DNA of 64,000 bases. Origin: Undaria pinnatifida. Lineage: Eukaryota > Sar > Phaeophyceae > Laminariales > Alariaceae. Positions 1 through 63,897 of this stretch are shown in pieces. Every line of letters begins with the position of its first letter. Positions within the stretch are counted from its first letter, which is position 1. A program made the position numbers and the translations under genes. The notes beneath the pieces are model-generated. The model had not been told where the DNA came from. It did no database searches and saw only the letters and a list, made by a program, of their open reading frames with translations. The stretch lies in NCBI GenBank assembly GCA_012845835.1, contig JABAKD010000041.1, positions 62,001 to 126,000 on the forward strand. The letters are read 5' to 3'.

Positions 1-1958
1 TAACTTCCAGGCGTAACCGGGAAGTCCGATTCCGACATCGTTGACCAACGCGTCCAACCGGTCAGGTAGACGACGTTGTTGGGGCGAGACGCTATCCCCA
101 AACTAGTGTCCCAATCAGAGCCTCCAATATAGGCACTATAATCAAGGCGGTCCCCCGACAAGGTAAGCCGGGTCAAAAAAGCATCCACGTCCCCACCAAT
201 TTCATCATCAAGAGCGTCACTCGTAGTCGGAAACTGGGTTGATTCGGTGCGGCCGGTGAGCAAAGGTCGATTCAGATCATCCAAATCCAGGGCCAGGACC
301 GAATCTGCCAGCTCACCACCAAGATAAGTCAAATAGTCAGCTTCCGTTCCTGCCTGATTCAACTTCAAGACGAACGCATCACTATATGAAAATCCGCCAG
401 ACTCATTACAATTCCCATCGGTGCCACAACTATCATCGTAAGCGCCGGCAGTTGTTGCTAAATCTGTAGAAATGGTCAGACCTGCCACAATCGCTTGCCC
501 TGCAGAATCAGCCTCCAAAGCGAAGGCACGATCTTCGCCACTGCCACCGACAAACGTGCTATAGCGCAGTTGGGTACCAGCAGGCTCCAGGACGGTCACA
601 AAGCCATCAAAGACACCACCAAAGCTCGTATCATAGGCACCAGAAGTAGTTGGGAAACCAGTTGCCGAGCGGGTCCAGCCAGCCACATAAACGGCATCAT
701 CAACACCAACTGTCAAAGCGGTGATGCTTTCCTGGCTGTCACCACCCAAATAGCTTCCCCAAAGCAGCTGGCTTCCATCCGCTGCGACCTTGACCACAAA
801 ACTGTCCCGCTCACCACCATGGCTACTGTCGTAGCCTGGCAGACCGGCCGGTAACAGATCTGGTGAAAATGTACCGCCGGCCACATAAGCATTCCCACTC
901 TCGTCCAATGCCAATGCCCGTGCATCATCAAAATTCTCGCTCGCAGTCCCGTTAATGAAAGTCCCGAATATCAGGTCAGATCCATCATCAGCAAATTTCA
1001 GAAGATACGCATCGGTCGGCCCCTGAAATTCATCATCGTAGGAACCCGCTGTGCGGGGGAAATCTGGTGAGTCGGTACGACCAACAAGATGAGCCTGCCC
1101 GTCCGCATCAACGGCGATCGCCTGGCCGTAATCCTGCCCGGTATCCAGCCCCATCGGGTTTGGGTTGACATGCAAAACATAATCGAGAGCGGTGCCAGCT
1201 ACATTTAATTTCGTCAGGAATATATCGATCCCATGTTGTGAGGTAGTTCCTACCGCATCCGGAAAGGTTATCGAAGTTGTATAACCGGTGGTATAGCTGT
1301 TGCCAACCGCATCAACCGCGATTCCATCAGCCTGATCCCATAATTCGTGGCCAATGAATGTACCAAAGCCAGCGGCCGGCACATTGCTGGCTTGCCCGAT
1401 TGCCACGGTATCTTCAGCAGCAAAGTAAAGGGGAATCTGCATGCTGTTTCCATTCTTCTGGAATAGCAATTGGTTGCCCTCAACGGCAACCGAACCATCG
1501 CTTTGCCAAATCAGCTTATCCGGCTCAGCGCCCAGAATCATTAAGCCTTGCCCGAAATCAACCAGCTGCCACTCGCCCCATTGCAAGGTTGACCATGTCG
1601 CTACATCCCGGAACCAGCTCTTTTCGTCAGCGCCATAATAGTAAGAGTGGGTTGTTTGATGTGGTGTTGCTCCGGCCGGTAGCGACTCCGCTAATTCAGG
1701 CCAACTCAACCGTACCGTCGTCACCTCATTTGTTGCGGAGCCAACCAGACCTAGCCAAATAGCATCAGCCGTGGCCCAGCCGATATATCCCTCACCTTGC
1801 CATTGATAAAGCACCGCCGCTTCAAATTGGCCTTCGTTGGCGATAATGGGGACGGAGTGGGGCCAGCTGGTCTCAGCCCTGCCCTTGGAAGGTGCCAGAA
1901 GCAAGGTAGCAGCAAGAATCAAAGCAAATACCGCGATGTAATAGCTGAGTTTTTTCAT
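1..1958 (-). CDS. Secreted SBBP/beta-propeller repeat protein (C-terminus beyond window)
   Basis: The frame is open from the ATG at 1958 to the window edge, giving 652 residues without a stop, so the gene continues to the left. Residues 1-27 look like a signal peptide (lysines, then a hydrophobic run ending near LLLAP). A lead-in domain of about 170 residues follows. After it come repeated blades of roughly 50-60 residues with the pattern 'AYVAG.T.S..FPTT.GAYD' and 'D.FV.KL...G..L.YSTY.GG', typical of SBBP (beta-propeller) repeats found in extracellular proteins of Chloroflexota and others. Its start overlaps the stop of the upstream glycosyltransferase by 4 nt (ATGA), so the two are probably translationally coupled. 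It is probably exported or surface-bound; the ligand is unknown. Confidence 0.85.
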   Translation of the reverse strand, partial: MKKLSYYIAVFALILAATLLLAPSKGRAETSWPHSVPIIANEGQFEAAVLYQWQGEGYIGWATADAIWLGLVGSATNEVTTVRLSWPELAESLPAGATPHQTTHSYYYGADEKSWFRDVATWSTLQWGEWQLVDFGQGLMILGAEPDKLIWQSDGSVAVEGNQLLFQKNGNSMQIPLYFAAEDTVAIGQASNVPAAGFGTFIGHELWDQADGIAVDAVGNSYTTGYTTSITFPDAVGTTSQHGIDIFLTKLNVAGTALDYVLHVNPNPMGLDTGQDYGQAIAVDADGQAHLVGRTDSPDFPRTAGSYDDEFQGPTDAYLLKFADDGSDLIFGTFINGTASENFDDARALALDESGNAYVAGGTFSPDLLPAGLPGYDSSHGGERDSFVVKVAADGSQLLWGSYLGGDSQESITALTVGVDDAVYVAGWTRSATGFPTTSGAYDTSFGGVFDGFVTVLEPAGTQLRYSTFVGGSGEDRAFALEADSAGQAIVAGLTISTDLATTAGAYDDSCGTDGNCNESGGFSYSDAFVLKLNQAGTEADYLTYLGGELADSVLALDLDDLNRPLLTGRTESTQFPTTSDALDDEIGGDVDAFLTRLTLSGDRLDYSAYIGGSDWDTSLGIASRPNNVVYLTGWTRWSTMSESDFPVTPGS

Positions 1959-3820
1959 GAACCAGATTCCAGATCAATTGTTATTAAATCCCACCATTCC
2001 GCTCCACCTGCCAGAGGCAAGCGACGGTCAGGATTAGCTAAATCGTAAAGTCCCAGGCGAACGGTGTAGCGACCGGCCGGTAAATCTACCGGCAGCAGGA
2101 TTCCATGATTGTCGACTACAGTTACCCCGGTTTGCCAACCCGTTGTCAAGGCTAAGCCGCCACCCGGCTCGCTGTCTCTTTGCGCCACAATGTTGCCGCC
2201 ACTATCAACTAGATGCAGAAATATCTTGTACCGTTCGTTGAGTGGCTGGAGCGCCTGCCACTGAAGCTGTACTGGCAAGATATCGCCAGGTAAAAGCGCT
2301 CGCTCCGGTAGCTGCGCCGCCAGCAAAACAATTTGCTCGGCAAATAACAGACCACCTTCAGGCAATGGTGCCGCTCTCATTTCAGCTTCTGCATCCGAAG
2401 GAGGCACAGCATACATCACAAAGCGGACATCGCCATACCATTGATCCACAGCCTTAAACGTTTGCTCATCCAGAAAGCGCTCAACACGCCGCTCAGGATC
2501 GCGCCCGGACTCGCCCCAGAAAATGGCATAAAGGCGGTCATGTTCAGCCACCAATCCTTGCAATTCTGCTTCCACAAGCTCCGGCGCGACAGCACCTCGC
2601 GGCAACGGATAGACGTCTGCCCCAGCCTGGTGATAGTAGGTAAAGACTTCCCATTGATTAGCCGCATTCAGAACGATGCCCGCGTTAGGATGACCCTCAC
2701 TGGCAATCCGTTCAGCCATTGCCCGATAGTCAGCCCGGGCATATTGGGTGTTATGGTATTGATTATCCAGCGCCCCGGCACTGCTCCAGAGAAATAATCC
2801 TGACAACCCCAAGGCCAAAGCAGCAGTCCAGCGACGACGCCACAGGGCAGCAAACCCAACCGCTAACAACAAGGCCAGAGGTGGAAACGCCAATAAGCTA
2901 AATTTGTAAAAGGCGGGCGACGTTGTCCCGACCAACCACAGGGAGAGCAGGGGCACAAATACAAGAGCTGCTACAAACAGCCAACGCTGGCGCATATACC
3001 AGAGGGCAGCCAACAACAAAATAACGAGCGGTAACAATGGCAGCCAAAGCGGCAATTCATTACCAATCCCGACCAATAAAAATTCAACAATATCTCGTCC
3101 AAAAGAGGTCAGTGACGTCTCTTCACCGGGGCGACCACCTGCTTGACGAAGAAAAATCGGGATCCAAACTGCGTAGAGAAGTAATGTGGCGACCATCATA
3201 CTGGCCCACTGTCGAACTCTTGGCCTCCAGGAAGCGCGCCAATAGATTAGTAGCCAGCTAGCAACAATGAGGTTATGGACCAGTAAAAATATGGGGTAAA
3301 AATAATGAGTATATAACCCGGCCACGGCCACCAGCACGTAACTGACCAGTAAGCTCGTCCTTGGCTGGCTAGCAACATACCAGCGCCACAAAAGCCAACT
3401 TTGTAACGTCGCCAGGAACGGGAGCAGGAGATACATTCGTGTCTCCTGGCTGTAATAAATCATGGTTGGATTGATTGCGACAAGAAAGGCGGCGATGAGT
3501 GGCACCGGCCGGTGCCACTGCCCACGGAACCACAACCTGCCCAATGCCAGGGTCAAGGCCGTTAAACCCACTCCTAAAAATGCCGAAAACGAACGCAATC
3601 CAAATTCACTGTCACCGACTAATTCGCGCCAGCCACGTAAGGCGATGTAATAAAGAGGCGGGTGAATATCACTGGCCGTCCCTTCCACAATGAGGTCAAG
3701 TGACCGCTCACTTAAACGAGCACTATTTCCCTCATCATTCCAGAAAGATTGGGCTTCTAATCGATAAAATCGCAGGCCGCAGGCGATTAGCAGAATCAAG
3801 ATCGCGATCCAACGCGTCAT
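1955..3820 (-). CDS. GT39-like membrane glycosyltransferase (PMT/ArnT superfamily)
   Basis: Integral membrane glycosyltransferase of the GT-C fold, expected to move a sugar from a polyprenyl-phosphate donor on the outer face of the membrane. The first transmembrane segment (residues 4-16) is followed by the acidic loop motif WNDEG (27-31) and DIHPPLYY (51-58), the conserved PMT-type signature. About ten further hydrophobic segments run to about residue 360. A soluble C-terminal part of some 250 residues ends in a beta-sandwich-like segment. I chose the ATG at 3820, which lies 14 nt after the previous gene's stop, rather than the upstream in-frame codon at 3871 that would overlap it. It sits between a cell-surface glycoside hydrolase and a secreted propeller protein, which suggests envelope glycan or glycoprotein work. 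Confidence 0.82.
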   Translation of the reverse strand: MTRWIAILILLIACGLRFYRLEAQSFWNDEGNSARLSERSLDLIVEGTASDIHPPLYYIALRGWRELVGDSEFGLRSFSAFLGVGLTALTLALGRLWFRGQWHRPVPLIAAFLVAINPTMIYYSQETRMYLLLPFLATLQSWLLWRWYVASQPRTSLLVSYVLVAVAGLYTHYFYPIFLLVHNLIVASWLLIYWRASWRPRVRQWASMMVATLLLYAVWIPIFLRQAGGRPGEETSLTSFGRDIVEFLLVGIGNELPLWLPLLPLVILLLAALWYMRQRWLFVAALVFVPLLSLWLVGTTSPAFYKFSLLAFPPLALLLAVGFAALWRRRWTAALALGLSGLFLWSSAGALDNQYHNTQYARADYRAMAERIASEGHPNAGIVLNAANQWEVFTYYHQAGADVYPLPRGAVAPELVEAELQGLVAEHDRLYAIFWGESGRDPERRVERFLDEQTFKAVDQWYGDVRFVMYAVPPSDAEAEMRAAPLPEGGLLFAEQIVLLAAQLPERALLPGDILPVQLQWQALQPLNERYKIFLHLVDSGGNIVAQRDSEPGGGLALTTGWQTGVTVVDNHGILLPVDLPAGRYTVRLGLYDLANPDRRLPLAGGAEWWDLITIDLESGS

Positions 3821-6773: not shown

Positions 6774-7583
6774 TTAAGCCTCTTGTGAAATGAATTGTTG
6801 AGAAGTCCGCGCTATGCTTTGTGTTCGCACTGCTCCAATCACGGCGATGGTGATGATAAGTCCGGCCGCGAGCAACGCCGTATTGGCAATCAGAGCAACA
6901 CCGATAAAAGCTGTACGAATTCCAAAGAGTGCCCAGATGAGTACCCCGGCATAGGCAAAGTCACGCCGATTATTAAGAAGCAAAGCCACTACGGCAACAG
7001 CTACCATCATCATGATCCCCGACCAGGTTTGCCCCGCAATACCAAAGCCATCCCAGCCATAATAGGCAGCCACCGAAGCGATATTAGCAATAGTAGCAAC
7101 GCTGATCCAGCCCATGTAAATACTGAATGGAAAGTGGAAAAACAATCTCTGAGCAACCGTGCGTTCGTTATGATGTTGGCCATTTTGCAGTCGTGCATAG
7201 GTTACGACCAGGGAAGCCAATAACGCCACCATAAAAATAACCGAGAGTGTATATAGCCCATAGTGCCAGGTAAAGAGCCAGACGCTGTTGAGAATGCTAC
7301 TTAACACGAAAAGCCACCCAATTTGGTGAATAGCTGGCTGATGTCGCTGGCTGGGCAAAGCCTGATAAACCATAAAGCCACCCAAAGCGAGATAAATCAG
7401 CCCCCAGATAGCGAAGGTGTATCCGGCCGGTGTAAAAAAGGAGGGCAGTGCGTCGGAGATGTCACCAGCCGTCCGACCATTTAGCGGCAAAACATTTGAC
7501 AAAACATTAACAGTCATCACCCCAATATAAGCCGCGATATTGGCGATAACTAAGATTTTAGAGGAAGTTGTTTTCGTTTCCAT
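6774..7583 (-). CDS. TspO/MBR-related tryptophan-rich sensory protein
   Basis: 269 residues from the ATG at 7583. It is highly hydrophobic, with about seven to eight membrane segments. The block FFTPAGYTFAIWGLIYLALG is characteristic of the long TspO/MBR-like family annotated as tryptophan-rich sensory proteins, and NSVWLFTWHYG and FSIYMGWISVATIAN also fit. Classical TspO binds porphyrins and cholesterol; function in this long branch is not established. An in-frame ATG at 7640 would add 19 residues, but a minus-strand promoter-like sequence between the two ATGs favours 7583, possibly on a leaderless transcript. It has its own terminator, so it is probably monocistronic. Confidence 0.78.
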   Translation of the reverse strand: METKTTSSKILVIANIAAYIGVMTVNVLSNVLPLNGRTAGDISDALPSFFTPAGYTFAIWGLIYLALGGFMVYQALPSQRHQPAIHQIGWLFVLSSILNSVWLFTWHYGLYTLSVIFMVALLASLVVTYARLQNGQHHNERTVAQRLFFHFPFSIYMGWISVATIANIASVAAYYGWDGFGIAGQTWSGIMMMVAVAVVALLLNNRRDFAYAGVLIWALFGIRTAFIGVALIANTALLAAGLIITIAVIGAVRTQSIARTSQQFISQEA

Positions 7584-7668: not shown

Positions 7669-9302
7669 TTACTCTGTCAAAGTGGCTGGCTCACTCGCCG
7701 GAATGGTGGCAATTTCATTGTCGATCATGAAGATTAGTATAAGGACGCTCAATAACGCTAGTCCAGCCGACATCAGCATGACGACACGGAATCCATCAAT
7801 ATAAGACCAGTGAATAGCCTGTTGTACGGCAATAGCGACTTCGGGGGTAAGACCGGCCGGTAGCTCTAACCCGGCCAGACTAGCCGCCCCCATCTGCAGC
7901 GATTCCCGTGTCGCAATAGACAAGCCCAATATCTCCGCCCGCGCTGCGAGACCTGACCGAAACCAGCTTAACATCACCGCCCCAAAGACCGCGATAGATA
8001 ACATCTGCCCAATCCGTGAGGCCGCATTATTAACGCCAGAAGCAATCCCCGATTGCCGCTGGGGCAAGGCACCCAGGGCCATTGTGGTCACCGGTACCAC
8101 AATTCCTCCTAAACCAATGCTATAAACCAAAATCGCCGGAAACCAGCTTGTCCAATATCCGCTCGCTTCGCCCGGTCGCAGGAAAAGCAGGAAACCTACA
8201 ACTGTAATTAAAATACCAACTGTCAAAATGGGTTTGGCTCCAATCCGATCAGCCAAAGAGCCAACCGCCCTGGAAAGCAAAAAAATCGTTATCGCCAATG
8301 GCAAAACGGCAAGGCCGGCAAGGGCGGCCGAGTAATCTTGCACTTGCTGTAGAAACAGGGTGATAAAAAAGAATGGCGCGCCCAGTCCTGCATACAAAAC
8401 CAGTGTCAACAAGTTAACACCAGCAAAGGTGCGTTGTCGGAATAAGGAAAGGGGAATCAAGGGATTAGAAACATTAAATTCAATAACTATGAACCCAACC
8501 AAACTGAGGGTACCGATAACCAAGCCCCCAGGACCCAACCGCTCGTCCAGCCTAAATTGGGCCCTTCAATCAAACCAAACAAGACACCGGCCAACCCTAT
8601 CATCAAAGCAATAGTGCCAGGCCAATCCAGCTTTGGGGAAATCGTCTCGTCGCGGCTGTCGGGCACATAATTGTGGGCTACGTAATAGGCCACAATGCCC
8701 AAAGGTACATTCAGGAAAAAGACAGACCGCCAGCTAAAACTGTCAACAAGCCAGCCACCCAGGACCGGTCCAGCCATGGTCACCAATGGAGAGAAAGTGG
8801 CCCAGGTACCCAACATCTTGCCCCGGCGTTCAGGTGCCACACTGACATTGATAACCGCTAGCGAAGCAGGCACCATGACTGCCCCACCGACTCCCTGCAA
8901 GAACCGGCCGACGATTAACAATATTGGATTGACCGACAAGCCGCACAGGAGCGAAGCACCGACAAATAGAGCAACGCCTATCTTGTAGACTTTGATGCGT
9001 CCATAGATGTCGCCCAGAACGCCGCCGAGAAGCAACAGTACGGAAAGCGTCAATAGATAGATATCGACGATCCATTGCAAATCGCCGATATCGGCATTTA
9101 ACGAACGTTGGATTGCGGGTAAGGCGACATTTACCGCAGTTTGGTCAAGATAGGTCATCGCTGTCCCCAGGATAGCAACAACCAGGACCATTCGTTCAAC
9201 AAAGCGAGCGTCAGCCAATGTATCTCCCAGGTCGTCGAGCTTGAAAGCAAACTTCTTTACGGCCCGAAATGAGTGTAACCTTTCTCCACTCTTAAAACAC
9301 AA
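7669..9302 (-). pseudogene. DHA2-type MFS drug exporter, frameshifted
   Basis: Two overlapping minus-strand frames make one 14-TM DHA2 (EmrB/QacA-type) transporter. The N-terminal part (8487-9302) has MTYLDQTAVNVALPAIQ, GGVLGDIYGRIKVYKIG and GRFLQGVGGAVMVPASLA. The C-terminal part (7669 to about 8538) continues from FGLIEGPNLGWTSGW into the second half. The switch falls at a run of five C (8525-8529 on the plus strand); one base appears to be missing. It could be a real inactivation, phase variation in a short homopolymer, or a sequencing error. The start is unclear: the TTG at 9302 lacks a ribosome site, and the ATG at 9191 begins exactly at TM1. Confidence 0.75.
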
Positions 9303-11186: not shown

Positions 11187-12032
11187 TTAACTAACTTCGT
11201 TCAAACTTGGGATTTGGGTACGTAGACCAGTAAATAGGTCAATTTCAGCTTCATCAGCAGGTTGCTGCGTCAGGTCAAAAACCCGAAAATAGCTTTGCTT
11301 GCCCCAAAGTTCCCGCTGAGTCGATTCCGGTAAGCGGGATAATGATTCATAACCCGGTAATTGTGATTGATGGGCGCTTACTGCTTGCCAGATTTGCTCC
11401 CATTGACTAGAGCTATCCAGCGTTGTGCAAAAGGACCAGGTTGGCCAGGCCACCGGCCGGCGTTCCACACCATCAATATTCATGACCAATTCACCCATTG
11501 CCAGCTGATACGTTTGAAATACAGCCGGGTCAAAAGTGCGATAATAAAATTTCTGGACCTGATAAGGGAGTTGATCAAAGTGATCGGTATAACGTTCCGA
11601 GGCAGCAAATTGAATGGCTGTGGCCGTCATCTGGGCAATTGCAATATGATCGGGGTGTCCATATGCGCCAAAGGGATCAAAGGTGACGACGACTTGTGGG
11701 CGAACCTCGCGGATATAACTGACGATATCTTTAACGAGCTTGCGGCTATCTGCCTGGCTCAATGAACCATCCATATAATCAAGCAAACGTGTTTCGGTAA
11801 CACCTAAGATCTCGGTCGCTGTATGCAATTCAGCTGCTCGGATTCGACCAAGCGCTTCTGGACCAGGGTTCTCTTCGGGGGCCCCAAACCAACCAATTTG
11901 GCCGGCCGTAGCTGTCAATACATAAGTGTCAATCCCTTCGGCAGCATATTTGGCAAATGTGCCACCGAATCCAAATGATTCATCGTCGGGATGGGCCATA
12001 ACGCCCAGGATTTTGAGTTGTTCTTTATACAT
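11187..12032 (-). CDS. PIG-L family deacetylase (LmbE-like)
   Basis: 281 residues from the ATG at 12032, chosen because GGAAGGA lies at the right distance upstream; the longer in-frame extension to 12101 has no support. The zinc-binding AHPDDE motif is at residues 13-18, and FDPFGAYGHPDH supplies the second histidine/aspartate group. The family hydrolyses N-acetyl groups from GlcNAc-type substrates, including thiol precursors (MshB, BshB), glycolipid and antibiotic intermediates. A second, distinct PIG-L protein is encoded at 45354. The substrate is not predictable from this sequence. Confidence 0.85.
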   Translation of the reverse strand: MYKEQLKILGVMAHPDDESFGFGGTFAKYAAEGIDTYVLTATAGQIGWFGAPEENPGPEALGRIRAAELHTATEILGVTETRLLDYMDGSLSQADSRKLVKDIVSYIREVRPQVVVTFDPFGAYGHPDHIAIAQMTATAIQFAASERYTDHFDQLPYQVQKFYYRTFDPAVFQTYQLAMGELVMNIDGVERRPVAWPTWSFCTTLDSSSQWEQIWQAVSAHQSQLPGYESLSRLPESTQRELWGKQSYFRVFDLTQQPADEAEIDLFTGLRTQIPSLNEVS

Positions 12033-12155: not shown

Positions 12156-15100
12156 TTAGAGTAGGCCGAGCTCTTGCAAAGTTGCTTCTGCTTCTTGCTC
12201 ATTTTCAGCAGCCAGAATTTCGCGCAACCCGAGGGCCAACGTTCCGGCCGGTTCACCACCGGTCAACGCAACAGCCAACTCTCGCCCAATGGTCGGCCAC
12301 AACCGTTGCATTGGAGTATCGGCCACAATGAGAAGTTCCCCGTCGGCGACAAAAATTGCCCGAGTCGTTTGCGGTTCACTTTGAAATTGTTGATCGGCCA
12401 ATGTCAGTTGATGACGCATCTGCAATGGGGATTGTTCATTTACCGTGAGCGTCGCAAACCAGTCCGGTAGTTGCCCCATCTTTGCCAGGCGCTGGATTAG
12501 AGCCGCCCGCGATACAATCGTCGCCGCAATATCCTGGCGCGGCATTCGCTTGCTGGACTGGTCGATTAGCTGTTCACTTAATGTCGTTAGCGGCTGCACA
12601 CCGGCCTCAACCCAGACGGAAGCCATCTTACTCTGCTGGCTCAAACCACGCTCTCCCAAGGTGGCGAACCGACCCGCTAACGCCTCGTCGTCAATCAGGA
12701 CACATTGTTCCGGACGTAACCAGTCGCCAGGTGAGGTGGGGATGACCGGCCGGTTTACCAACCGGGCCAGCCCGGTCGCTAACTCAGGCTCAGCATCTAG
12801 ACGCTCAGCTAAAGCCAACCACAACTGCTGAGCCAGCTCAACATTGCCATTGGATACGAGGAGCCGCTCAATGAGATCGCTACCGTGGGGTTCAGACCGG
12901 ACTCCCAACCATTCGTACAGAGAGGCCATCGCCCCGGACTCCACAGGCTCGGCAATCGCCACCTCTTCACCCAACAAAGTCATAACTTGCCGATCCAGAT
13001 AAACGGTTGCACCAGCCCGAAAACTGCCATCTAAACAAGGAATGAGCGGCAGCTCTGCGTAATCTGCTTGTAACTCGTAATCATCACGGAACTCACCCAA
13101 GCGCCTGGCCAATAATTGTAATAATTGATGGCGCCCATCGGCAGGTAATACGCGATCCTGTCGCAGGGCACGCGGTAGCAGCTCATATATGTAAGTATCA
13201 AAATCGAGCTCACGGGTCCCCAAATCTTGCAAGAACTGGCGGCGCCCGCCAACCCAGCGCAGATCAACCAAAGCTGCCAATCCCAGCGGCTCGTTAAAAC
13301 CACCCGGGATAAAAAGTGATTCCAATGGACGCAGTTCACCATCAATCGGCATTAATGGCAAGCGGCGCAATAAGCCAATCAACTCCATATCGTCGACCAA
13401 GATCTCGATCTGGCGTCCTTCAAACCAACGAAACAACAGCTCAATATCCAATCGACCGGCGCGCCAGGCCGATTCCAATTCTTCAACGGTCAAAGAACGT
13501 AGATAGGTGATCCCTTGACGGGCATTAAACTCCGTAACTGCGTTTCCGGGGAAGGTTAAGGGATCGATATCCGGATGTAGCCAATTGACGTCTACAAACA
13601 GGGCTTGAACTTCCTCGTTACCACGAAATGTACGGCGTAATGAGGATAGCCACATTCGTTCGGTAACTACAATTGCCAACTGGCTTAACTCAGCCAGGCT
13701 TTCACGTCGCTGATCCGGCCGGTAAATATCCATCAATAGTTCATCAATTAGCCCCCACAGCAATCGCCAGGAAGCAAAATCACGCAAATAAGTCGGAGCA
13801 CTGAACAAAGGCTGCGGCCGGGTCAGATTCTGAGCCCGCAAAGCGCTAATGAGATCAGCCAGCGTCAAGCTATTACAACCCAACTCATTGCTCGACATCA
13901 AGGGAATGAATTCTGCCAGGTTAATGTCCACTACCGCCAGACCCATTTGGCTCAATAAAGAAGCAGCAGCTCGTGACGCTGAACTTTTTAGCAAAATTCT
14001 CTCGGCCCCAACTCCCCAGCGACCTTCTAGATCGGGGAAAATGGGCAGCGCAGCCAACTGAGGCGTCACCAACTGCCAAAATTGAGCCAAGACTGTCGGC
14101 TTCTCGTCAAAACCAGCTTGAGCCGCCGTGTCAGATAATTGTTGCAACAGGTTCCAGAAATTGGTCACACTCAACCGATCTCGCAATAACGGCAGATTAT
14201 TAGCAATAGCGGCGGCAGCTCCGGTTAAGGCGGCCTCATTCCATTCCGCCTGAAAACCAGCAGCGAATTGTAATCGTTTGCGATCAGTAGTCGGGAAAAA
14301 GTCGGCATTTATCTGGGCGGCCAGGGGCAAGCGCTCTTCGGTCGGCAAGCCTGCAAACAAGCGCCCTGGCTCACCACTTTCCATTAAAGGCATCGCCAAT
14401 TGCACGGCAGCGTTACGATTGTCTTCTATTTGGAATTGATAGCGGGATTTAAGCCCGCTCGCCGCCTCGGCAAAATTACCATGGAGCAAAAGATAATTAC
14501 TCCTGGCTCCGGTAACATCTTGCAAAATCAGCTCGTCATCCGCCAATGTTCGCGTAACCTGTTCAATGATCTTGCCATTACGCTTTACCGTGAGTCTGGT
14601 TAATTGACGCAGAAAGAGGGCCGCTTCACCAAGGAGCACAGCAACCTGGGCCGCAAACCCGTCTAATTCATCGAGCTGCCAGGCTGGAAGCCGTAATGCG
14701 CGCCGGACTTCAGAGTCGCCAGCGGTTGCCCAGGGCAACAGAAAGCGCGTCCCGGTTGTCTCGGCTTTTCGTTCTAATATACGTTCTTCAGCCACGGCTT
14801 CCGGTCGGATCACCCAATGCCGTCCGCCAGAAAAAATCTCCGGCCGGTCCGTCACCAGATAAACCACGACAAAACCGATCCCGAAAGCGCCGGTTGTACC
14901 CGCTTCGTCTCGTTTACCGCCGCTAGCTATTTGCTGCAGTCGCTCAAAATCAACCGGCCGGAACTCACCATCATTCTCAATAATGAGCGCCTCGTCAGTA
15001 ACATCAAAGGTTACTGAGCTGGCTTGCGGGCGACCCGCTTCATCCCGGACATCATCAGCGTTTTGAATAAATTCATAGGCTAAAGAGGTCGTCCCGGCCA

Positions 15101-15173: not shown

Positions 15174-15178
15174 TTCGG

Positions 15179-54940: not shown

Positions 54941-56431
54941 CTAAACTGGATCTGGGTCATCCAAATAGTTCATTTCAGGTTTGAGATCCCAACGGCAAAC
55001 ATCTTCCGGCTGTGTCTTATGGGCCCACTGCTTCAGGAGATTGGCATCCAGCTTCTTGGCGGCCATCGTGGTACGGACCGTTTCGGGATTCCAATCAGAC
55101 AGGAGTCGCTCTGTCATGGCGTCCAACATTGTTTTAGCAGCAGAATCATTGGCTAGATCGACCATCTCCTCCGGGTCATCTGCGAGGTTAAATAGCTGCC
55201 CAGGTTGATTGTGGTAATAGACAAGTTTCCAATCTCCCTGCCGGATCATACGCTGGTAGCAACCACCGGCCGGTGCAAACTCATCCGAACAATATTCCGA
55301 GAACGCGATATCCTCCCAATCTTCTGGTACCTCGCGACCATCAACCAGACTCAGAAAATCGCGCCCCTCCGAATGGGGCAAAGGCGGCGCATCAATCGCC
55401 GCCAAAATAGTGGCATTAACATCCAGGGCCGACACAACCCGATCACATTGTTGACCGGCCGGTATCCGCCCGGGCCACGACATAATCAAGGGCACCTTGA
55501 CCGACTCTTCGTAAAAGACATGCTTCCACCACAAACCATGCTCCCCGAGCATATCGCCATGGTCACTCGTGTAAACAATCAAGGTGTTTTCAACCAACCC
55601 ATTTTCCTCTAAAGCGCGCAATATCTGCCCGACCAAAGCATCCACACGCGTAACCAGCCCCCAATAGGCGGCCCTTGCTCGCCGTGTTTCTGCTTCGGTA
55701 ACCGCTTCAATTTCGGTCGCTTGCCGCCACCAGCGTAGAAATGGATGCTGCTCGGCGGCAAACGGCCTTGGCTTAGCAGGTAGTGGGACCGACTCTTCAT
55801 AAAGCTGATAATCTTCCCGGCGTGCCACAAAAGGTGCATGGGGCAACATAAAGCCAACGGTTAGATTAAATGGCTCATCAGAACCTCCCGACCGTCTAGC
55901 GATACCAACTTGATTAAGATGATCCACGGCCGCTGCAGCCACAACTTCATCATGCACCTGATAAGCCGATTGGCCGGCGCCAGAGCGTTCCAGGCTGATA
56001 CGCTCGGGATCATTCGTCCCTTGCAGATAGCCCCGGTCCGTCCCTGAACCACCCAGGTAATTTGATTCGTGATCACCAACCAGGCGCTCGGTATAACCAC
56101 GGAGCTGGTCAGGGCCTAACGAATGGAGGCGACCGATGAGAACCGGCCGGTAACCCGCTGCTCCCATACTGTGGGCCAATGTCGGGATTCCTGAATTCAA
56201 GCTATGTTCGTTTGTCCATACTTCGTTTTGAAAGGGATGCTGTCCCGTTAACATCGACATACGCGAGGGCACACAGATGGGGGACGGACAGTAGACATTG
56301 TTAAACATCACCCCATTGGCAGCCAGCCGATCCAGGTTGGGCGTTTGAACCAGTTTGTCACCGTAGCAACCGAGCACCCTGGGCGTATGTTGATCGGTGT
56401 GGATATAGAGCAAATTGGGCCGATCAGCCAT
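54941..56431 (-). CDS. Sulfatase (formylglycine-type, CxPSR)
   Basis: 496 residues from ATG 56431. The formylglycine motif is CVPSR (53-57), with YHTDQH-like IHTDQH (10-15) supplying early metal ligands and YTSDHGDMLGEHG the later ones. It hydrolyses a sulfate ester or phosphonate. No signal peptide, so probably cytoplasmic. Its start overlaps the ThDP gene's stop by 8 nt, a clear operon link; the longer frame to 56632 lies inside that gene and is rejected. The formylglycine-generating enzyme is not in the window. Confidence 0.88.
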   Translation of the reverse strand: MADRPNLLYIHTDQHTPRVLGCYGDKLVQTPNLDRLAANGVMFNNVYCPSPICVPSRMSMLTGQHPFQNEVWTNEHSLNSGIPTLAHSMGAAGYRPVLIGRLHSLGPDQLRGYTERLVGDHESNYLGGSGTDRGYLQGTNDPERISLERSGAGQSAYQVHDEVVAAAAVDHLNQVGIARRSGGSDEPFNLTVGFMLPHAPFVARREDYQLYEESVPLPAKPRPFAAEQHPFLRWWRQATEIEAVTEAETRRARAAYWGLVTRVDALVGQILRALEENGLVENTLIVYTSDHGDMLGEHGLWWKHVFYEESVKVPLIMSWPGRIPAGQQCDRVVSALDVNATILAAIDAPPLPHSEGRDFLSLVDGREVPEDWEDIAFSEYCSDEFAPAGGCYQRMIRQGDWKLVYYHNQPGQLFNLADDPEEMVDLANDSAAKTMLDAMTERLLSDWNPETVRTTMAAKKLDANLLKQWAHKTQPEDVCRWDLKPEMNYLDDPDPV

Positions 56432-58261: not shown

Positions 58262-60592
58262 TCACTCTGTCGGATGAAGGAGCGACCAAATCTTTTCAGT
58301 CGTTAAAGGCATATCAACATGGCGGATTCCAAGGTGAGAAAGCGCATCCACAACCGCATTGACAATAGTCGGCATAGAACCGATTGTAGATGCCTCGCCA
58401 ACACCTTTTACGCCAAGTGGATTCAAAGGGGATGGCGTCTCAGTCCGATGATTTTCGAAATGAGGAAAATTGTCTGCCCGGGGAATCGCATAATCGAGAG
58501 CAGAGCCGCTAAGGAGGTTTCCCATCTCATCATAGTGGGCGACCTCCCAAAGTGCCTGTCCCAAACCCTGGGCCAGACCACCATGTATTTGACCCTCGAC
58601 AAGCATTGGATTAATAACCCGACCACAATCATCGACAGTCAGGTAGCGCAAAATTTCCAGGGCACCGGTTTGCTTATCGATCTCGACCACAGCGACATGG
58701 CTACCAAAGGGAAAGATGCGCTCTTCCGGCTCAAAATCTTTGTCTGCTTGTAAGCCGCCCTGTTGCTCGGTAGGCAATGTGGGATCGGTGGCGGCAGCGG
58801 CGACTTCAGCCCAACTCAATGAGCGTTCGGGAACACCCACAACCTGGAACTGGCTATCAACAACTGTAACATCGAGGGGGGATGCTTCTAAAAGATGGGC
58901 AGCAACATGGCGGGCTTTCTCCAGCACTGTTTGGGAGTTTAGCCGTACGGCACTCCCGGCCAGAGCTGTACTACGACTGCCATAAGTCCCCATTCCGCGT
59001 GGGACAATGGCTGTGTCACCGTGAAGTACCTCAATCTCTTCCATAGGAAGTTGCAACGTATCGGCCGCGATTTGGGCCCAGGTCGTTTCATGTCCCTGAC
59101 CATGGGGGGAGCTACCAGTCTTGATGGTGACCTTCGCATTTTCGTCCATGAAGACGCCACCAGATTCGAATGGGCCAGGCCCACAAACTTCAACGTAGGT
59201 GCACAACCCTACTCCAAGCAATTTGCCACTATCTTTTGAACGCTGGCGCTGTTTTTCACGCCAACCTTCATAGTCGCTAAGCTCAAGCGCCTTTTCAAGA
59301 TTAGGCAGATAATTGCCACTGTCATAAGTGGTGTTGGCAGCTGTTTTATAGGGGAATTTTTCGGGCGGCACATAGTTACGACGCCTTAATTCGGCCGGGT
59401 CCAAACCCATTTCATCCGCTAGAACATCGACAGCTCGCTCAATCAGAAAAGCGGCGTCAGGACGTCCGGCACCACGATATGGTTCGGAGGGATGTTTATT
59501 CGTGAAAACGCCAGTTGCTTCGGCATGGATCTTGGGAATGTCGTAGACGCCGGTCATCATGGAGATTGTAATCGCCGGAATAAGTGGAGCGATAGTGCCG
59601 TAGAAAGCACCACAATCCTGGCGGAGCTTGAGTGAGGCGGCCAGGATCCGGCCGGTTTCATCTGCCGCCAAGCCAATGGTTCCTTTTTGGTCCCGACCAT
59701 GGCTAGTCACCAGATAATCTTCGCTACGCGAAGCAGCCCATTTGACGGGGCGACCAAAGCGGCGCGCCAGGTAAGGCGCTAAAATCTCCTCACCATGCGT
59801 CCCCCCTTTCACCCCAAATCCGCCGCCCACCTCAGGCGCAATAACGCGCATCTTGTTTGGTGGGCAAGCGAGGGCCGCAGCCAATGAGTCACGCAAACCA
59901 TGAGGAGATTGGGTAGTCGACCAGACGGTATAAGAGTCAGAAGCCGCTTCGTATTGAGCCAAAACGGCGCGTGGTTCCATCGCATTTGGAATGACCCGCT
60001 GATTGGTAAGCGTCAATTCAATGGTATGTGCAGCAGACGCGAATATGGGGGCGACATCCTCCCCCACAGGCCCCCAACAGAAGGCTAAATTACTATCCCA
60101 CTCTTCATGGATAATGGCCGCATCAGAAGCTAAAGCCGCTTCCGGATCTACCTGGGCAGCTAGCGGATCGTAATCCACAAAAACCAGCTCTACTGCATCC
60201 TGTGCCGTGTAAGAATTTTCAGCCAAAACCAAAGCGACCGGCTCGCCAACAAAATGAACCTTACTCGAGGCCAAAGGATAGCGTTGAGCCATCTTGCTGT
60301 CTGAAAATGGCGCTCCATCAATGGGGAAACCAGGCTTCAAGGTGGTGGCAAAGCTACTATTCACGTCGGCAGCGGTCAGGATGGCGACTACACCTGGCAG
60401 GGCCAGCGCTTCACTACTGTCAATCTCGCCAACTCGGGCATGGGCATAGGGGCTGCGCACAAACGCTAAATGGAGAGTGTCCGGAAGCTGAATATCGGCC
60501 ACAAAGAGACCTTTCCCTGTAATAAGACCGGGATCCTCGCGTCGCTTGACTCGAGCTCCCATAAACTTGGGTAAGGCTTGTACAGAATCCAT
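58262..60592 (-). CDS. Xanthine dehydrogenase family molybdopterin subunit (form II CoxL-like)
   Basis: 776 residues, the usual size. It has the N-terminal domain (RVKRREDPGLITGKGLFVAD) and the molybdopterin part (EVGGGFGVKGGTHGEE, DCGAFYG). The active-site loop is PYRGAGRP (371-378), the form II (AYRGAGR-like) version rather than the AYxCSFR of true CO dehydrogenase. The C-terminal GVKGVGEAS carries the catalytic glutamate. No CoxM (FAD) or CoxS (2Fe-2S) gene is adjacent, so partners must lie elsewhere. It probably hydroxylates an aromatic or aldehyde substrate. AGGAGG precedes the ATG. Confidence 0.88.
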   Translation of the reverse strand: MDSVQALPKFMGARVKRREDPGLITGKGLFVADIQLPDTLHLAFVRSPYAHARVGEIDSSEALALPGVVAILTAADVNSSFATTLKPGFPIDGAPFSDSKMAQRYPLASSKVHFVGEPVALVLAENSYTAQDAVELVFVDYDPLAAQVDPEAALASDAAIIHEEWDSNLAFCWGPVGEDVAPIFASAAHTIELTLTNQRVIPNAMEPRAVLAQYEAASDSYTVWSTTQSPHGLRDSLAAALACPPNKMRVIAPEVGGGFGVKGGTHGEEILAPYLARRFGRPVKWAASRSEDYLVTSHGRDQKGTIGLAADETGRILAASLKLRQDCGAFYGTIAPLIPAITISMMTGVYDIPKIHAEATGVFTNKHPSEPYRGAGRPDAAFLIERAVDVLADEMGLDPAELRRRNYVPPEKFPYKTAANTTYDSGNYLPNLEKALELSDYEGWREKQRQRSKDSGKLLGVGLCTYVEVCGPGPFESGGVFMDENAKVTIKTGSSPHGQGHETTWAQIAADTLQLPMEEIEVLHGDTAIVPRGMGTYGSRSTALAGSAVRLNSQTVLEKARHVAAHLLEASPLDVTVVDSQFQVVGVPERSLSWAEVAAAATDPTLPTEQQGGLQADKDFEPEERIFPFGSHVAVVEIDKQTGALEILRYLTVDDCGRVINPMLVEGQIHGGLAQGLGQALWEVAHYDEMGNLLSGSALDYAIPRADNFPHFENHRTETPSPLNPLGVKGVGEASTIGSMPTIVNAVVDALSHLGIRHVDMPLTTEKIWSLLHPTE

Positions 60593-60836: not shown

Positions 60837-60849
60837 AAAAAAAGCTATC

Positions 60850-61977
60850 CTAATCTGGCAGAACCTCCAGGAAACGCTCAATCTCATGACGCTCATTATA
60901 AAAAGTAGGCGAGATACGCAAGTTGCCGGCCCGAATGGCGAGATGAACTTTAGCATCAGTCAATCGCTGTTCAATGGTGTCAGCTGGTATTGAGGGGTGG
61001 CGAAAGGCCAAAACTCCCGAGCGTTCACCTTCACCCAATGGTGAAATGATTTCATACCCTTTCTGGTGCAAACCCTCAAGGGCCAGATCATTCAATTCAC
61101 GGATGTGGCTTTCGACCGCAGGCATCCCCAATTCCAACAATTGCCGAACGGCCGCATCCAACCCCCAGATGCCTGGGAAATTGACGAGAGCTTCCTCGAA
61201 ACGACCGGCATTCTCCCGTAAGGTCAAATCATAATCGAGGTGGGCTTCTGATTTGTTGACCGTGTGGTAACCTACGTTTTGGGGCCAAATCTTGTCCATC
61301 GACTCCTTGCGACAGTAGAAAAAGCCGGTGCCAATTGGACCTAACAGCCATTTGTGAGCCCCGGCCGATAAAAAATCAATATGATATTGGGAAACATCAA
61401 TATCGAGCACCCCAACCAGTTGAATCGCATCCAGATTTAAGAGCACGCCGCGGCGCTGACAAATCTCACTTAGCTTAGCCAGGTCGACGCGAAATCCATT
61501 CCAAAATTGGACTGCGCTGACGGATACCAGGCGGGTACGCTCATCAATGGCAGCCTCGATCGCTTCAGGGGTGACGCGACCGGCCGGTGCCTCAACCCAT
61601 TTCACCTGTACACCGCGCCGAGCCAAATTCAACCAGCAATAAACATTCGACGCATACTCTTTCTCGGCTATCACCACATTGTCACCCGGCTGCCAATCAA
61701 GCCCGTTGGCAACGATCAAAATGCCTTCGGTCGTATTTTTAACGTAGGCAATTTCGTCCCTATCAGCACCGATGAGTTGAGCAATCCGAGCTTTATGCTC
61801 CGTGTCGGCAATTTGGCACCAGTCCGGATAGTTAATACGGCCACTATCCCGCACCTGTCCCATAAAGCCATCGACGGCTTCAATGACCCGGGTGGACATC
61901 GCCCCGATTGAGGCGTTGTTGAGATAAACCATATTCTCTTTTATGGGAAATAAGGGGTGTACATGGCTAAAATCCAT
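60850..61977 (-). CDS. Class V aminotransferase (cysteine desulfurase/isopenicillin epimerase-like)
   Basis: 375 residues from the ATG at 61977; the frame to 62049 is rejected. PLP fold type I, class V: YLNNASIGAMS (18-28), VKNTTEGILIVANG, LNLDAIQLVG (Asp183) and SAGAHKWLLGPIG with Lys209 as Schiff base. No cysteine in the usual desulfurase active-site loop is evident, so a desulfurase role is not proven. A DMT transporter gene diverges from it and its coding start lies within 65 bp. Confidence 0.85.
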   Translation of the reverse strand: MDFSHVHPLFPIKENMVYLNNASIGAMSTRVIEAVDGFMGQVRDSGRINYPDWCQIADTEHKARIAQLIGADRDEIAYVKNTTEGILIVANGLDWQPGDNVVIAEKEYASNVYCWLNLARRGVQVKWVEAPAGRVTPEAIEAAIDERTRLVSVSAVQFWNGFRVDLAKLSEICQRRGVLLNLDAIQLVGVLDIDVSQYHIDFLSAGAHKWLLGPIGTGFFYCRKESMDKIWPQNVGYHTVNKSEAHLDYDLTLRENAGRFEEALVNFPGIWGLDAAVRQLLELGMPAVESHIRELNDLALEGLHQKGYEIISPLGEGERSGVLAFRHPSIPADTIEQRLTDAKVHLAIRAGNLRISPTFYNERHEIERFLEVLPD

Positions 61978-62041
61978 CAAGTTGCTCCATTTGGGGTGGC
62001 AGGATTGTTGTAGGGTACCGGCCGGTATTGTAGTATACGCA

Positions 62042-63052
62042 TTGCCCATTCAACCAATTCGTGGTCGTGGACCGGAGTTCAACATTAATCAACGCCCTAC
62101 TTCTACTAGCGACCTTTCCAATACGACTGCAAATTTCGGTCTATTTTTTCTAATTGCGCTGTTGGCCCACACCGGCCGGGGCATGAGTCCACCGTTAGCT
62201 CGCTATTTTCAAGTCGTCGTCGGCCTTCCCCTTTTCGTCTTTGTAATTATTCCGGGCGTTCCGCTCCTCCTCGGTCACATCTTTTATACCTTACCCAAAT
62301 CTGGATTCGCCATATGGCGGAATCGGATACTCTTTGCTACCTCCAGCTTGCTGGTTCTTCGGGTCATTAGCAATATCAGTGCGTCACGTTTTACCAAAGC
62401 GATTTACGTCCAGCTATTTGCCTTGATGATACCGTTTTTCGTCGTCATTTTGAGCCAGATCTTTCTCAAGGAAAAGCCACCAAAGTACACCTGGACAGCC
62501 ATTATTTTGTCCTCTATTGGTGCCTTCCTGATGCTAAGTTCCGATATCGGTACTGACGGCATCGCCTTCGGTTTGAGTCGTCTCGACAAAATTGGGATTG
62601 GTTTTGCCATCGCACAAGCCATTATCGCCAGTGGCCACTTCGTAATGCTGCGTCGGGCCAAGCAAGCAGGGATTGCCAATCATGAAATTCTGACCTCACA
62701 AAGTGTGATGGTCGCCCTTGTCGCCATGCCAGTTAGCCTGGCCACCCGTGAAGATTGGAGCATTCTGTTTACCATGAGTAGTTGGCAATGGGCCGCTTTG
62801 GTTTTCTTTGCATTCGTGCCGGTTTTAGCTGCGAACTGGTTCCAGATAACAGCCATCGCCAATATTGGCGCAAACGCTTTTAGTAGTGCATTACCGTGGC
62901 GCTTGTTGACAGTCTTGATTGTCGGCTGGTTTTTGTTGGGTGAAAGATTGGAATCTGTCTGGCAAGTGCTGGGTGCGATCATCGTCTTTTTGACTATCAC
63001 AGGTTATTTTTATCTAAGGCAAAGAGATGAGAAATTGACCCGATCCGGGTAG
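62042..63052 (+). CDS. EamA/DMT-family transporter
   Basis: About 336 residues with ten hydrophobic helices and two EamA repeats (GLFFLIALLAHTGRGMSPPLARY; ALVFFAFVPVLAANWFQITA, then RLLTVLIVGWFLLGERLESVWQ). The long loop between TM1 and TM3 fits the family. Start uncertain: no ATG lies upstream of TM1 except 61943, which is inside the divergent aminotransferase gene. The in-frame TTG at 62042 is my choice. A copy of the iterated palindrome (62017) lies just before it. A MOSC gene follows 8 nt later. Confidence 0.72.
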   Translation: MPIQPIRGRGPEFNINQRPTSTSDLSNTTANFGLFFLIALLAHTGRGMSPPLARYFQVVVGLPLFVFVIIPGVPLLLGHIFYTLPKSGFAIWRNRILFATSSLLVLRVISNISASRFTKAIYVQLFALMIPFFVVILSQIFLKEKPPKYTWTAIILSSIGAFLMLSSDIGTDGIAFGLSRLDKIGIGFAIAQAIIASGHFVMLRRAKQAGIANHEILTSQSVMVALVAMPVSLATREDWSILFTMSSWQWAALVFFAFVPVLAANWFQITAIANIGANAFSSALPWRLLTVLIVGWFLLGERLESVWQVLGAIIVFLTITGYFYLRQRDEKLTRSG

Positions 63053-63060
63053 GATAATTT

Positions 63061-63897
63061 ATGAATCGTCTAAAAATTGGCTCAGTAAAAGCGCTCTTTC
63101 GTTATCCCGTAAAATCCATGTCTGGAGAGAAGGTCGCAACCATGGCCCTGAATGAAAAAGGGGCTGTTGGTGATCGGGCATTTGCGCTGCGTAAGCGTGA
63201 TGGCCGCTTAATGACGGCGAAGCGTACCGGCCGGTTGCTCCAATACCAAGCCAGCTACAGTGACCCCGACCTGACAAAAATTGTCGTTACCTGTCCTGAC
63301 GGCCGTCAGCTTCATGAAGACGAATTAGCTAGCGGAGAAACACTCTCCGCGCTCTTAGAGCAAGAAGTTAACCTGGAGCGTTGGCAGGCAGAGCAGCTAA
63401 ATTATGGTGAGTTAGATGCCAGGACAGTTTTTGCCGACGTGCCCCTGGCCACTGCACTAGCTGGCAAGAAACGACAACTTCAGCCAGACGCCGACCGTTA
63501 TGATCTCGCCCCGGGCACATTTTTTGATTCGGCCCACCTCCATCTGTTAACTACCGGGACCCTGGCCCATTTGCAGGGGTTAATTGGCCCAGACGCTCAG
63601 GTGGATGCACGCCGTTTTCGACCAAATATCTTAATCGAATCCGACCCAGCGTTAAGCGGGTTTATCGAAGATGAATGGTATGGGGCCAAGCTACAAATCG
63701 GCGAATCCGTACTGATACACGAAATATGGCCCACATTACGCTGCGTCATGACCACATTGCCACAGAATGATCTACCGAAAGATGTTCGTATGTTACATGC
63801 TGTAGTTAAACATCATGAGACCCATTTGGGCGCATTTGCAGCGGTAGAAAACGCTGGCACCATTAAAGTTAGTGACGCAGTGACCTTGATAAAATAA
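63061..63897 (+). CDS. MOSC domain protein (molybdenum cofactor sulfurase C-terminal-like)
   Basis: 278 residues. The N-terminal beta-barrel (VKALFRYPVKSMSGEKV) is followed by the MOSC core with RRFRPNILIE and the likely reactive cysteine in LRCVMTT (near residue 233). Such proteins bind the molybdenum cofactor or carry sulfur. AGGA precedes the ATG. Adjacent to the DMT transporter (8 nt). Molybdo-enzyme genes nearby include the CoxL-like gene at 58262. Confidence 0.86.
   Translation: MNRLKIGSVKALFRYPVKSMSGEKVATMALNEKGAVGDRAFALRKRDGRLMTAKRTGRLLQYQASYSDPDLTKIVVTCPDGRQLHEDELASGETLSALLEQEVNLERWQAEQLNYGELDARTVFADVPLATALAGKKRQLQPDADRYDLAPGTFFDSAHLHLLTTGTLAHLQGLIGPDAQVDARRFRPNILIESDPALSGFIEDEWYGAKLQIGESVLIHEIWPTLRCVMTTLPQNDLPKDVRMLHAVVKHHETHLGAFAAVENAGTIKVSDAVTLIK

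Follow-up and report, generated by a model that had tools for sequence, protein, structure and literature searches.

A CGGCCG-core highly iterated palindrome and its lineage dialects in relatives of two Chloroflexi genomes

The closest described systems are the highly iterated palindromes (HIPs) of cyanobacteria, of which HIP1 was first described in 1995 (the year given in Elhai 2015, PMC4390886) and has been unexplained since. According to the portions of Elhai (2015, PMC4390886) drawn on here, a HIP is a GC-rich palindrome that ranks as the top 8-mer, has an observed-to-expected ratio (O/E) in the tens and occurs ~500–2500 times per Mb. The same portions state that every cyanobacterial HIP genome encodes a methyltransferase predicted to recognise some part of the HIP, and Table 2 of that paper gives alternate HIPs of single cyanobacteria, namely GGCGCC, GCSGC, RCCGGY, and GGGATCCC. 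We analysed the 10-mer ACCGGCCGGT and its core CCGGCCGG in a 64,000-base stretch of DNA, hereafter the window, which comprises positions 62,001 to 126,000 of contig JABAKD010000041.1 in an Undaria pinnatifida assembly (GCA_012845835.1; G000:C50:62001-126000 in our numbering). A preliminary description had called this motif a HIP1-like palindrome of different sequence in Chloroflexota, which is supported by its density, O/E, extension, one-off variants, filling of permitted sites, and reshaping of proteins, with HIP1 itself used as a calibrator. The finding is broader than first seen: HIPs with dialects occur in a second phylum, and the CGGCCG core is shared by many of the relatives.

The palindrome in the window

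Within the window (50% GC), 27 exact copies of ACCGGCCGGT were found between 843 and 63235, together with 41 copies of the CCGGCCGG core, corresponding to 641 per Mb, for which a count of 1.0 was expected from composition. The control GGCCGGCC occurred once, so that all three counts given earlier were reproduced exactly, and HIP1 proper, GCGATCGC, was not overrepresented (3 copies in 64 kb). Dinucleotide shuffles of the window (100 shuffles) gave a mean of 0.02 and a maximum of 1 for the 10-mer. Synonymous codons were also shuffled 300 times within the 47 long, essentially non-overlapping open reading frames (ORFs) of the window, which gave expectations of 0.42 for the 10-mer (27 observed) and 3.1 for the 8-mer (39 observed); for GGCCGGCC, 1.8 were expected and 1 was observed. 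The preliminary description had named two ways in which the motif might prove ordinary, namely a codon-shuffled expectation equal to its count and other GC-rich palindromes of equal frequency. Within the window it survived the shuffle, and the second-ranked palindromic 8-mer had 6 copies. These results confirm that the iterated palindrome is real and strong. The 41 copies are listed below with the strand given as '.'; for coding copies, the peptide read at the site was taken from the long-ORF analysis.

843..852,., ACCGGCCGGT, outside long ORFs
2072..2081,., ACCGGCCGGT, coding (PAG)
3504..3513,., ACCGGCCGGT, coding (HRPV)
7852..7861,., ACCGGCCGGT, coding (PAG)
12745..12754,., ACCGGCCGGT, coding (NRPV)
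15506..15515,., ACCGGCCGGT, coding (PAG)
16724..16733,., ACCGGCCGGT, coding (PAG)
20298..20307,., ACCGGCCGGT, coding (HRPV), nicotinate phosphoribosyltransferase; loci L013 and L015 have CACCGGCCGGTN at the same site
22508..22517,., ACCGGCCGGT, coding (DRPV)
27513..27522,., ACCGGCCGGT, coding (PAG)
29313..29322,., ACCGGCCGGT, coding (PAG)
31806..31815,., ACCGGCCGGT, coding (NRPV)
38424..38433,., ACCGGCCGGT, coding (PAG)
39159..39168,., ACCGGCCGGT, coding (HRPV)
39905..39914,., ACCGGCCGGT, coding (YRPV)
42333..42342,., ACCGGCCGGT, coding (PAG)
43277..43286,., ACCGGCCGGT, coding (PAG)
44383..44392,., ACCGGCCGGT, coding (PAG)
47189..47198,., ACCGGCCGGT, coding (DRPV)
48629..48638,., ACCGGCCGGT, coding (TGR)
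50686..50695,., ACCGGCCGGT, coding (PAG)
55265..55274,., ACCGGCCGGT, coding (PAG)
55454..55463,., ACCGGCCGGT, coding (PAG)
56142..56151,., ACCGGCCGGT, coding (YRPV)
61579..61588,., ACCGGCCGGT, coding (PAG)
62017..62026,., ACCGGCCGGT, coding (PAG)
63226..63235,., ACCGGCCGGT, coding (TGR)
1672..1679,., CCGGCCGG core, flanks T..T, outside long ORFs
7423..7430,., CCGGCCGG core, flanks T..T, coding (PAG)
11453..11460,., CCGGCCGG core, flanks A..C, coding (RRPV)
12244..12251,., CCGGCCGG core, flanks T..T, coding (PAG)
13715..13722,., CCGGCCGG core, flanks T..T, coding (YRPD)
14840..14847,., CCGGCCGG core, flanks T..T, coding (DRPE)
14954..14961,., CCGGCCGG core, flanks A..A, coding (FRPV)
18183..18190,., CCGGCCGG core, flanks T..T, outside long ORFs
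33793..33800,., CCGGCCGG core, flanks A..A, coding (HRPD)
34398..34405,., CCGGCCGG core, flanks T..T, coding (SGR)
38931..38938,., CCGGCCGG core, flanks T..T, coding (PAG)
48769..48776,., CCGGCCGG core, flanks A..A, coding (PAG)
59648..59655,., CCGGCCGG core, flanks T..T, coding (TGR)
62172..62179,., CCGGCCGG core, flanks A..G, coding (TGR)

The flanks of the 41 cores were A..T in 27 cases, which indicates a symmetric extension that preserves the palindrome, as the HIP class demands; the others were T..T (9), A..A (3), A..C (1), and A..G (1). Since T..T and A..A are each other's reverse complements, a one-sided deviation was seen in 12 of the 41. No strong consensus was present beyond 10 bp, where the top share at any flanking position was 34/82, and the spacing of the cores (mean 1,560 bp, in agreement with the earlier figure of about one per 1.6 kb) was fitted by an exponential distribution (Kolmogorov–Smirnov p = 0.76). 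On account of both features, the motif is not a transposable repeat. The copies had been said to spread over 40-odd genes on both strands; both strands were indeed used, but the number of genes was too high, as 38 copies were located in 25 of the 47 long ORFs (7 on + and 18 on −) and 3 more outside them. One of these genes belongs to a candidate defence pair on the minus strand (12156-17347), which consists of two overlapping genes, one for a sacsin-domain protein (1013 aa, PADLOC TmtA, E 7e-204) and one for an SF1-type helicase (722 aa, matching MkoA); the sacsin-domain gene alone has 5 motif copies.

The assembly that holds the window consists of 511,146,479 bases in 68 contigs, which is far too large for a bacterium, so that the window, with its dense and long ORFs, was read as part of a bacterial contig within a eukaryote-sized assembly. 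The closest relatives of its nicotinate phosphoribosyltransferase (NAPRTase) were Chloroflexota (Anaerolineae), and we infer that contig 50 is a cobiont or contaminant contig. Over the whole assembly, ACCGGCCGGT occurred 453 times (27 in the window) and the reversed control word 413 times; the first 10 kb of each of contigs 1-20 contained no 10-mer and two 8-mers. The 12-mer CACCGGCCGGTA was found 12 times on contig 50 (61.5 to 186 kb; 6 beyond the window), 4 times on contig 47, and 39 times elsewhere, and contig 47 is probably part of the same bacterium as contig 50.

Dialects in the relatives and filling of permitted sites

A set of 58 loci from named genomes was found via NAPRTase. Two of them, L013 (Chloroflexi MAG-182) and L015 (Chloroflexi MAG-171), were rich in CGGCCG with any flank, containing 44 copies in 14.8 kb (18-fold over composition) and 31 copies in 11.5 kb (13-fold), respectively; at the remaining loci this hexamer nowhere exceeded 3-fold. 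A NAPRTase tree of 40 of the 58 loci grouped the window with L013/L015 (support 94/82). Other words stood out elsewhere in this set. TGATCA was 6- to 11-fold over composition at L005, L010, L026, and L031 (small counts, 7 to 13), recalling the picocyanobacterial TGATCA word mentioned in the consulted part of Elhai (2015, PMC4390886), and CTCGAG or CGAGCTCG was enriched at L030, L035, L042, and L058 (e.g., 14 copies of CGAGCTCG, 17-fold, at L058), whose titles name Acidobacteria, Thermoanaerobaculia/-ales, and Acidimicrobiales. The NAPRTase of L014 and L023, from rumen bacteria, groups among Chloroflexota, perhaps by transfer.

The survey was extended to 98 genomes, consisting of that of L013 and its relatives. 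Genomes with a CGGCCG/GCCGGC ratio of at least 2 were defined as enriched (38/98) and those below 1.25 as non-enriched (46/98), while the 14 between were excluded from tests; the figure of 38 is only a guide because GCCGGC is an imperfect control, both hexamers being frequent in G044 and GCCGGC being favoured in G015 and G084. Strong cases were G001 (6.5 Mb; 22,240 CGGCCG against 1,218 GCCGGC), G018 (8.0 Mb; 13,814 against 51, ratio 271), and G021 (4.1 Mb; 21,019 against 132, ratio 159, or ~5 CGGCCG per kb). GCCGGC was strikingly rare in the latter two, as if avoided. A second NAPRTase tree (27 of 30 loci used) placed the window with G001/G002/G005 at weak support (53/90), and the nearest sequences by identity were those of G038, G026, G050, G043, and G046 (71-72%).

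Flanks sampled from loci of these relatives showed symmetric outer bases, in many cases specific to a lineage, giving the dialect words ACGGCCGT, GCGGCCGC, and TCGGCCGA. A accounted for more than half of the flanks in 21 genomes (e.g., 20/20 in G007), G for 28/28 at 14 sites of G018, which form the NotI sequence GCGGCCGC, and T for 24/28 in G011; G003 used A or T, and G001, G002, G021, and G044 used any base. Whole-genome counts cover ACGGCCGT, and those of GCGGCCGC and TCGGCCGA come from the loci. ACGGCCGT exceeded 5,000 copies in 26 of the 98 genomes, in which the control TGCCGGCA numbered 40 to 459. The maximum was reached in G050 (7.5 Mb), with 15,176 copies (~2,000 per Mb) against 183 of TGCCGGCA, and O/E was 112 in a 15-genome pool. 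The motif was spread genome-wide in the relatives, and it was also present on contig 50 beyond the window and on contig 47. The density, dominance, and O/E of the window and relatives are those of the HIP class (Elhai 2015). The C dialect of the window was absent at its share from the 98 relatives, where CCGGCCGG/CGGCCG was at most 27% (G031) against 59% in the window (41/70); G001, for example, had 1,710 CCGGCCGG among its 22,240 CGGCCG. ACCGGCCGGT therefore represents the dialect used by the lineage of the window, within a HIP whose core CGGCCG is strongly enriched in many relatives of the MAG-182 and MAG-171 genomes, and many lineages each have their own symmetric outer base. Two genomes suggested further words: G015 (L181, L234) contained 3,665 TGCCGGCA, 14 ACGGCCGT, and 447 CGGCCG, pointing to a dialect with an altered core, and G084 (L149, 3.1 Mb) contained 23,451 GCCGGC against 6,866 CGGCCG, possibly another iterated word.

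The strength of the motif was evaluated by comparing the codon positions at which the protein permits it with those that carry it, a measure devised here rather than a published criterion. WCCGGCCGGW was realised at 37 of 42 permitted sites in the window, where 0.92 was expected from codon use, against 0 of 35 for SCCGGCCGGS and 0 to 2 of 31 to 87 for each of ten other 8-mer palindromes; all 20 PAG tripeptides of the window were spelled CCGGCCGGN. Similar filling was observed in the relatives, namely 228/266 for ACGGCCGT (16 genomes), 22/31 for TCGGCCGA, 14/21 for GCGGCCGC, 8/15 for TGCCGGCA, and, for CGGCCG, 45/57 in G021 and 135/214 in G001/G002. In 15 pooled genomes that lack the word, ACGGCCGT filled 0/33 and CGGCCG 24/351 (30 expected). 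The same measure was applied to 50 kb each of pSYSM (Synechocystis PCC 6803) and pAQ7 (Picosynechococcus PCC 7002), calibrators that are plasmids and not chromosomes. HIP1 filled 20/23 and 40/50 permitted sites, respectively, as GGCGATCGCC, and 25/40 and 58/71 as GCGATCGC. The window motif and HIP1 on the two plasmids look alike in kind and strength.

The proteins were also shifted towards the word. Permitting positions numbered 42 in the window against 16.3 in shuffled proteins, 161 against 45.4 in 11 A-dialect genomes (in which three other words stayed within 1.2 standard deviations), and, for GGCGATCGCC, 23 against 4.7 on pSYSM and 50 against 6.0 on pAQ7. The window control SCCGGCCGGS was also above chance (35 against 20.9, z 3.3), presumably owing to the peptides that it has in common with the motif. 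The filling measure is partly circular, as a new motif creates its own permitting residues; two facts are not circular: only 5 permitted window sites were unfilled, against 16.3 permitted ones in shuffled proteins, and the permitting positions are themselves in excess. Hence, the motif occupies most positions that the proteins permit, and the proteins offer more of these than chance. An example is a conserved site of NAPRTase, whose residue is variable with K and Q commonest: an R codon yields CACCGGCCGGTN in the window, L013, and L015, while R also occurs in L014, L019, L030, and L058, of which L030 alone (68% GC) has the word; G005 has CCGGCCGG and G086 has CCGGCCGA at this site. This is suggestive, not proof, of residue replacement towards the word.

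Possible means by which the copies are kept

The explanation that we consider best overall, with a probability of about one half, is that the CGGCCG-core dialects reflect a site-autonomous fixation bias exerted through a dimeric reader and biased repair or conversion. The word was favoured over other permitted spellings with odds of ~99 in the 16 genomes of the A-dialect pool and of ~375 in the window, so that such a bias would keep the copy at each site with odds of ~100- to 375-fold (ln odds 4.6 to 5.9). In this pool, the 228 realised sites had their nearest other copy at 208 bp and 30 unrealised sites had theirs at 254 bp (p = 0.30), 8 further unrealised sites having been dropped because their locus held no other copy, and the density was 1.75 per kb inside and 1.83 per kb outside ORFs of at least 150 aa. 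Since no effect of the nearest copy on filling was seen, a per-site bias is suggested, in which each copy would be retained or favoured singly and not for a regional need of one per kilobase. Such a need, as in the saturation argument of Elhai or in uptake, predicts dependence on neighbours; none was seen, and a requirement of one copy in each kb, be it for repair or for uptake, is accordingly disfavoured and was rejected as unsupported. One-off variants of the A-dialect octamer numbered 31 inside CGGCCG against 93 expected from codon use and 39 at the outer base against 26; in the window, the corresponding values were 2 against 7.7 (inner) and 6 against 2.9 (outer). This concentration at the first and last positions matches the HIP class as far as the consulted part of Elhai (2015, PMC4390886) describes it. 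Because the specificity is strict and symmetric, with mainly the outermost base drifting, a dimeric reader is suggested, for which an enzyme of restriction/modification type is a candidate. Biased repair or conversion is thought the most likely step: at a mismatch in or beside a site, the strand with the exact site would win, and exact sites would escape mutation.

Several points weigh against this explanation. Weak selection with a scaled coefficient of ~5 to 6 would reach an equilibrium identical to that under a repair bias, so that the data do not separate the two. No reader or enzyme was found among the families searched. The A-dialect pool includes close relatives, so that its sites are not all independent, and two of the 5 unrealised window sites lay within 40 bp of a copy, a spacing hint on numbers too low to count. 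Filling of permitted sites by itself removes some one-offs and accounts for part of their shortage, and against composition one-offs of the hexamer were not depleted (0.7 to 2.8 in enriched against 0.8 to 2.0 in non-enriched genomes). Furthermore, the NAPRTase trees do not establish the enriched genomes as one clade, with the non-enriched G075 adjoining G035, and the genome of the window's own bacterium is represented only by parts of two contigs. We would extend the proposed per-site bias only tentatively to the claim that HIPs are general in at least two phyla, where a putative strict dimeric reader would act independently of methylation, HIP1 would result from the same process, and drifting outer-base specificity would rewrite genomes into dialects and shift protein sequences.

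Among the alternatives, a methyltransferase-linked HIP (Elhai 2015) survives best, though we regard it as doubtful. Here, an orphan enzyme would modify a cytosine of the palindrome, methylation-directed mismatch repair would create and keep the sites, and the enzymes would differ between lineages or have escaped recognition so far. The presence of a predicted matching enzyme in every cyanobacterial HIP genome and the agreement of our one-off pattern with Elhai's, both judged from the consulted part of that paper (PMC4390886), speak for it, and recent loss of an enzyme would leave the motif standing. The relatives were examined in the METHYLTRANSFERASES survey, in which PF01555, PF02086 (D12), PF00145, and the Vsr family PF03852 were searched across the same 98 genomes with cut-offs of <1e-9 for C5 and N4/N6 and <1e-19 for D12. 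C5 enzymes were commoner in enriched than in non-enriched genomes (21/38 against 7/46, p = 0.00016), as were D12 enzymes (31/38 against 19/46, p = 0.00029), an excess that favours the methyltransferase model but that shared descent alone could explain. N4/N6 matches were present in 29 of the 38 enriched genomes. On the other side, 17 of the 38 had no C5 match and 6 had neither C5 nor N4/N6 (G004, G005, G007, G037, G040, and G046), absences that may in part reflect incomplete genomes. In these six, G004 had C5 fragments, one of them at a contig end, G040 had N4/N6 matches to 4e-8, and G007 and G046 had N4/N6 matches near 5e-4 only; G005 and G037 had no C5 or N4/N6 match at 0.001, and G005 had no PF02086 match either. 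Among close kin, G046, G048, and G050 had 2 (weak), 24, and 25 PF01555 matches, with no C5 match in G046 and 2 C5 in G048, at nearly equal ACGGCCGT densities of 1,931, 2,088, and 2,023 per Mb. Unusually methyltransferase-rich genomes, with 19 to 25 PF01555 matches each, were G017, G019, G026, G032, G048, G050, and G094.

Candidates for a single partner were rejected in turn, as none of the families searched tracks the motif across the 98 genomes. The C5 enzyme of G001/G002 (L095/L094) is Dcm-like and not co-distributed with the motif; it had looked promising, its loci (3.7 and 2.8 kb) showing no restriction gene and a common downstream neighbour, but orthologues above 60% identity were found only in G001, G002, G021, G028, and the non-enriched G093, to which G004 adds a fragment of 35 residues at the end of a contig. 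When scanned against NCBIfam, two D12 enzymes (L156, L167) proved to be Dam-family adenine methylases, and Vsr-type very short patch repair was set aside with PF03852 in 6/38 enriched genomes and 11/98 overall. Judged from these gene contents, a single conserved C5, N4/N6, or Dam-type methyltransferase or Vsr does not appear to fit the relatives examined, and the methyltransferase model seems weakened, not excluded. Of the roles proposed in the preliminary description, methylation thus loses ground in part, for want of an enzyme shared by the relatives, and uptake does so because filling shows no spacing dependence.

Another possibility is that an abundant, sequence-specific nucleoid or chromosome-organising protein, whose preference at the outer base drifts between lineages, places its binding sites under weak selection; we judge this unlikely. 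The odds of 99 to 375 would need scaled selection of only ~5 to 6, a homodimer suits a strict palindrome, and amino-acid choice has moved towards the motif. However, near-misses of binding sites are usually enriched in a graded manner, whereas in-core one-offs here fell below codon expectation, and it is difficult to see how copies at 2 to 5 per kb could each confer a benefit regardless of the distance to the next. A DNA uptake sequence built up by biased transformation is very improbable. Copies per kb, dialects, and genic location do resemble those of uptake sequences in Neisseriaceae and Pasteurellaceae, but the motif is palindromic, CGGCCG reaches ~5 per kb in G021, and the drive should fade once a fragment has a copy, while no effect of a neighbour ~200 bp away was seen. 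That the pattern arose artefactually from base composition, codon use, a transposable repeat, or the assembly, for which nothing speaks except the GC-rich content, can practically be dismissed in view of the codon-shuffle and permitted-site controls, the lack of a strong consensus beyond 10 bp, and the many genomes and dialects.

Comparison with known systems

A second bacterial group with HIP1-like quantitative behaviour, natural dialects, and varied methyltransferase content turns the origin of such words into a comparative problem. The putative reader can be looked for among genes that co-vary with the outer base, enriched genomes in which no cytosine methyltransferase was detected allow a test of the methylation model, and the permitted-site measure provides a common yardstick for iterated palindromes. 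A short DNA word that reshapes proteins genome-wide also bears on codon-bias, dN/dS (nonsynonymous to synonymous substitution rate), and compositional analyses. The claim that no equivalent had been published for Chloroflexota is uncontradicted by searches of the PubMed Central (PMC) library, outside which subscription papers mostly lie; those aimed at iterated palindromes listed none for this phylum.

DNA uptake sequences (DUS/USS) consist of thousands of short genic copies with lineage dialects; they are non-palindromic, have graded and abundant near-misses, and are linked to competence. The present motif resembles them in its short genic copies by the thousands and in its dialects and differs in being a palindrome, with in-core near-misses of the octamer below codon expectation. 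The motif words are also identical to recognition sequences of type II restriction-modification systems, CGGCCG being the EagI site and GCGGCCGC the NotI site; restriction usually leads to avoidance of a site, whereas here it has accumulated. The alternate cyanobacterial HIPs, as the consulted part of Elhai (2015) presents them, are GC-rich palindromes in place of HIP1, and RCCGGY overlaps the ends of ACCGGCCGGT; they are sporadic (1-2 genomes each) and accompanied by a predicted methyltransferase, whereas here many relatives share one core with dialects. The closest likeness is to HIP1 (GCGATCGC / GGCGATCGCC): both are strict GC-rich palindromes at hundreds to thousands per Mb, with symmetric extensions that differ between lineages and one-offs that chiefly affect the outer base (Elhai 2015, in the same part), and on pSYSM and pAQ7, as here, permitted sites are filled and proteins are bent to permit the word. 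The core of HIP1 is CGATCG, in contrast to CGGCCG without an internal GATC in another phylum; the outer base here takes A, C, G, T, or any, and no shared partner methyltransferase was detected among the 98 relatives.

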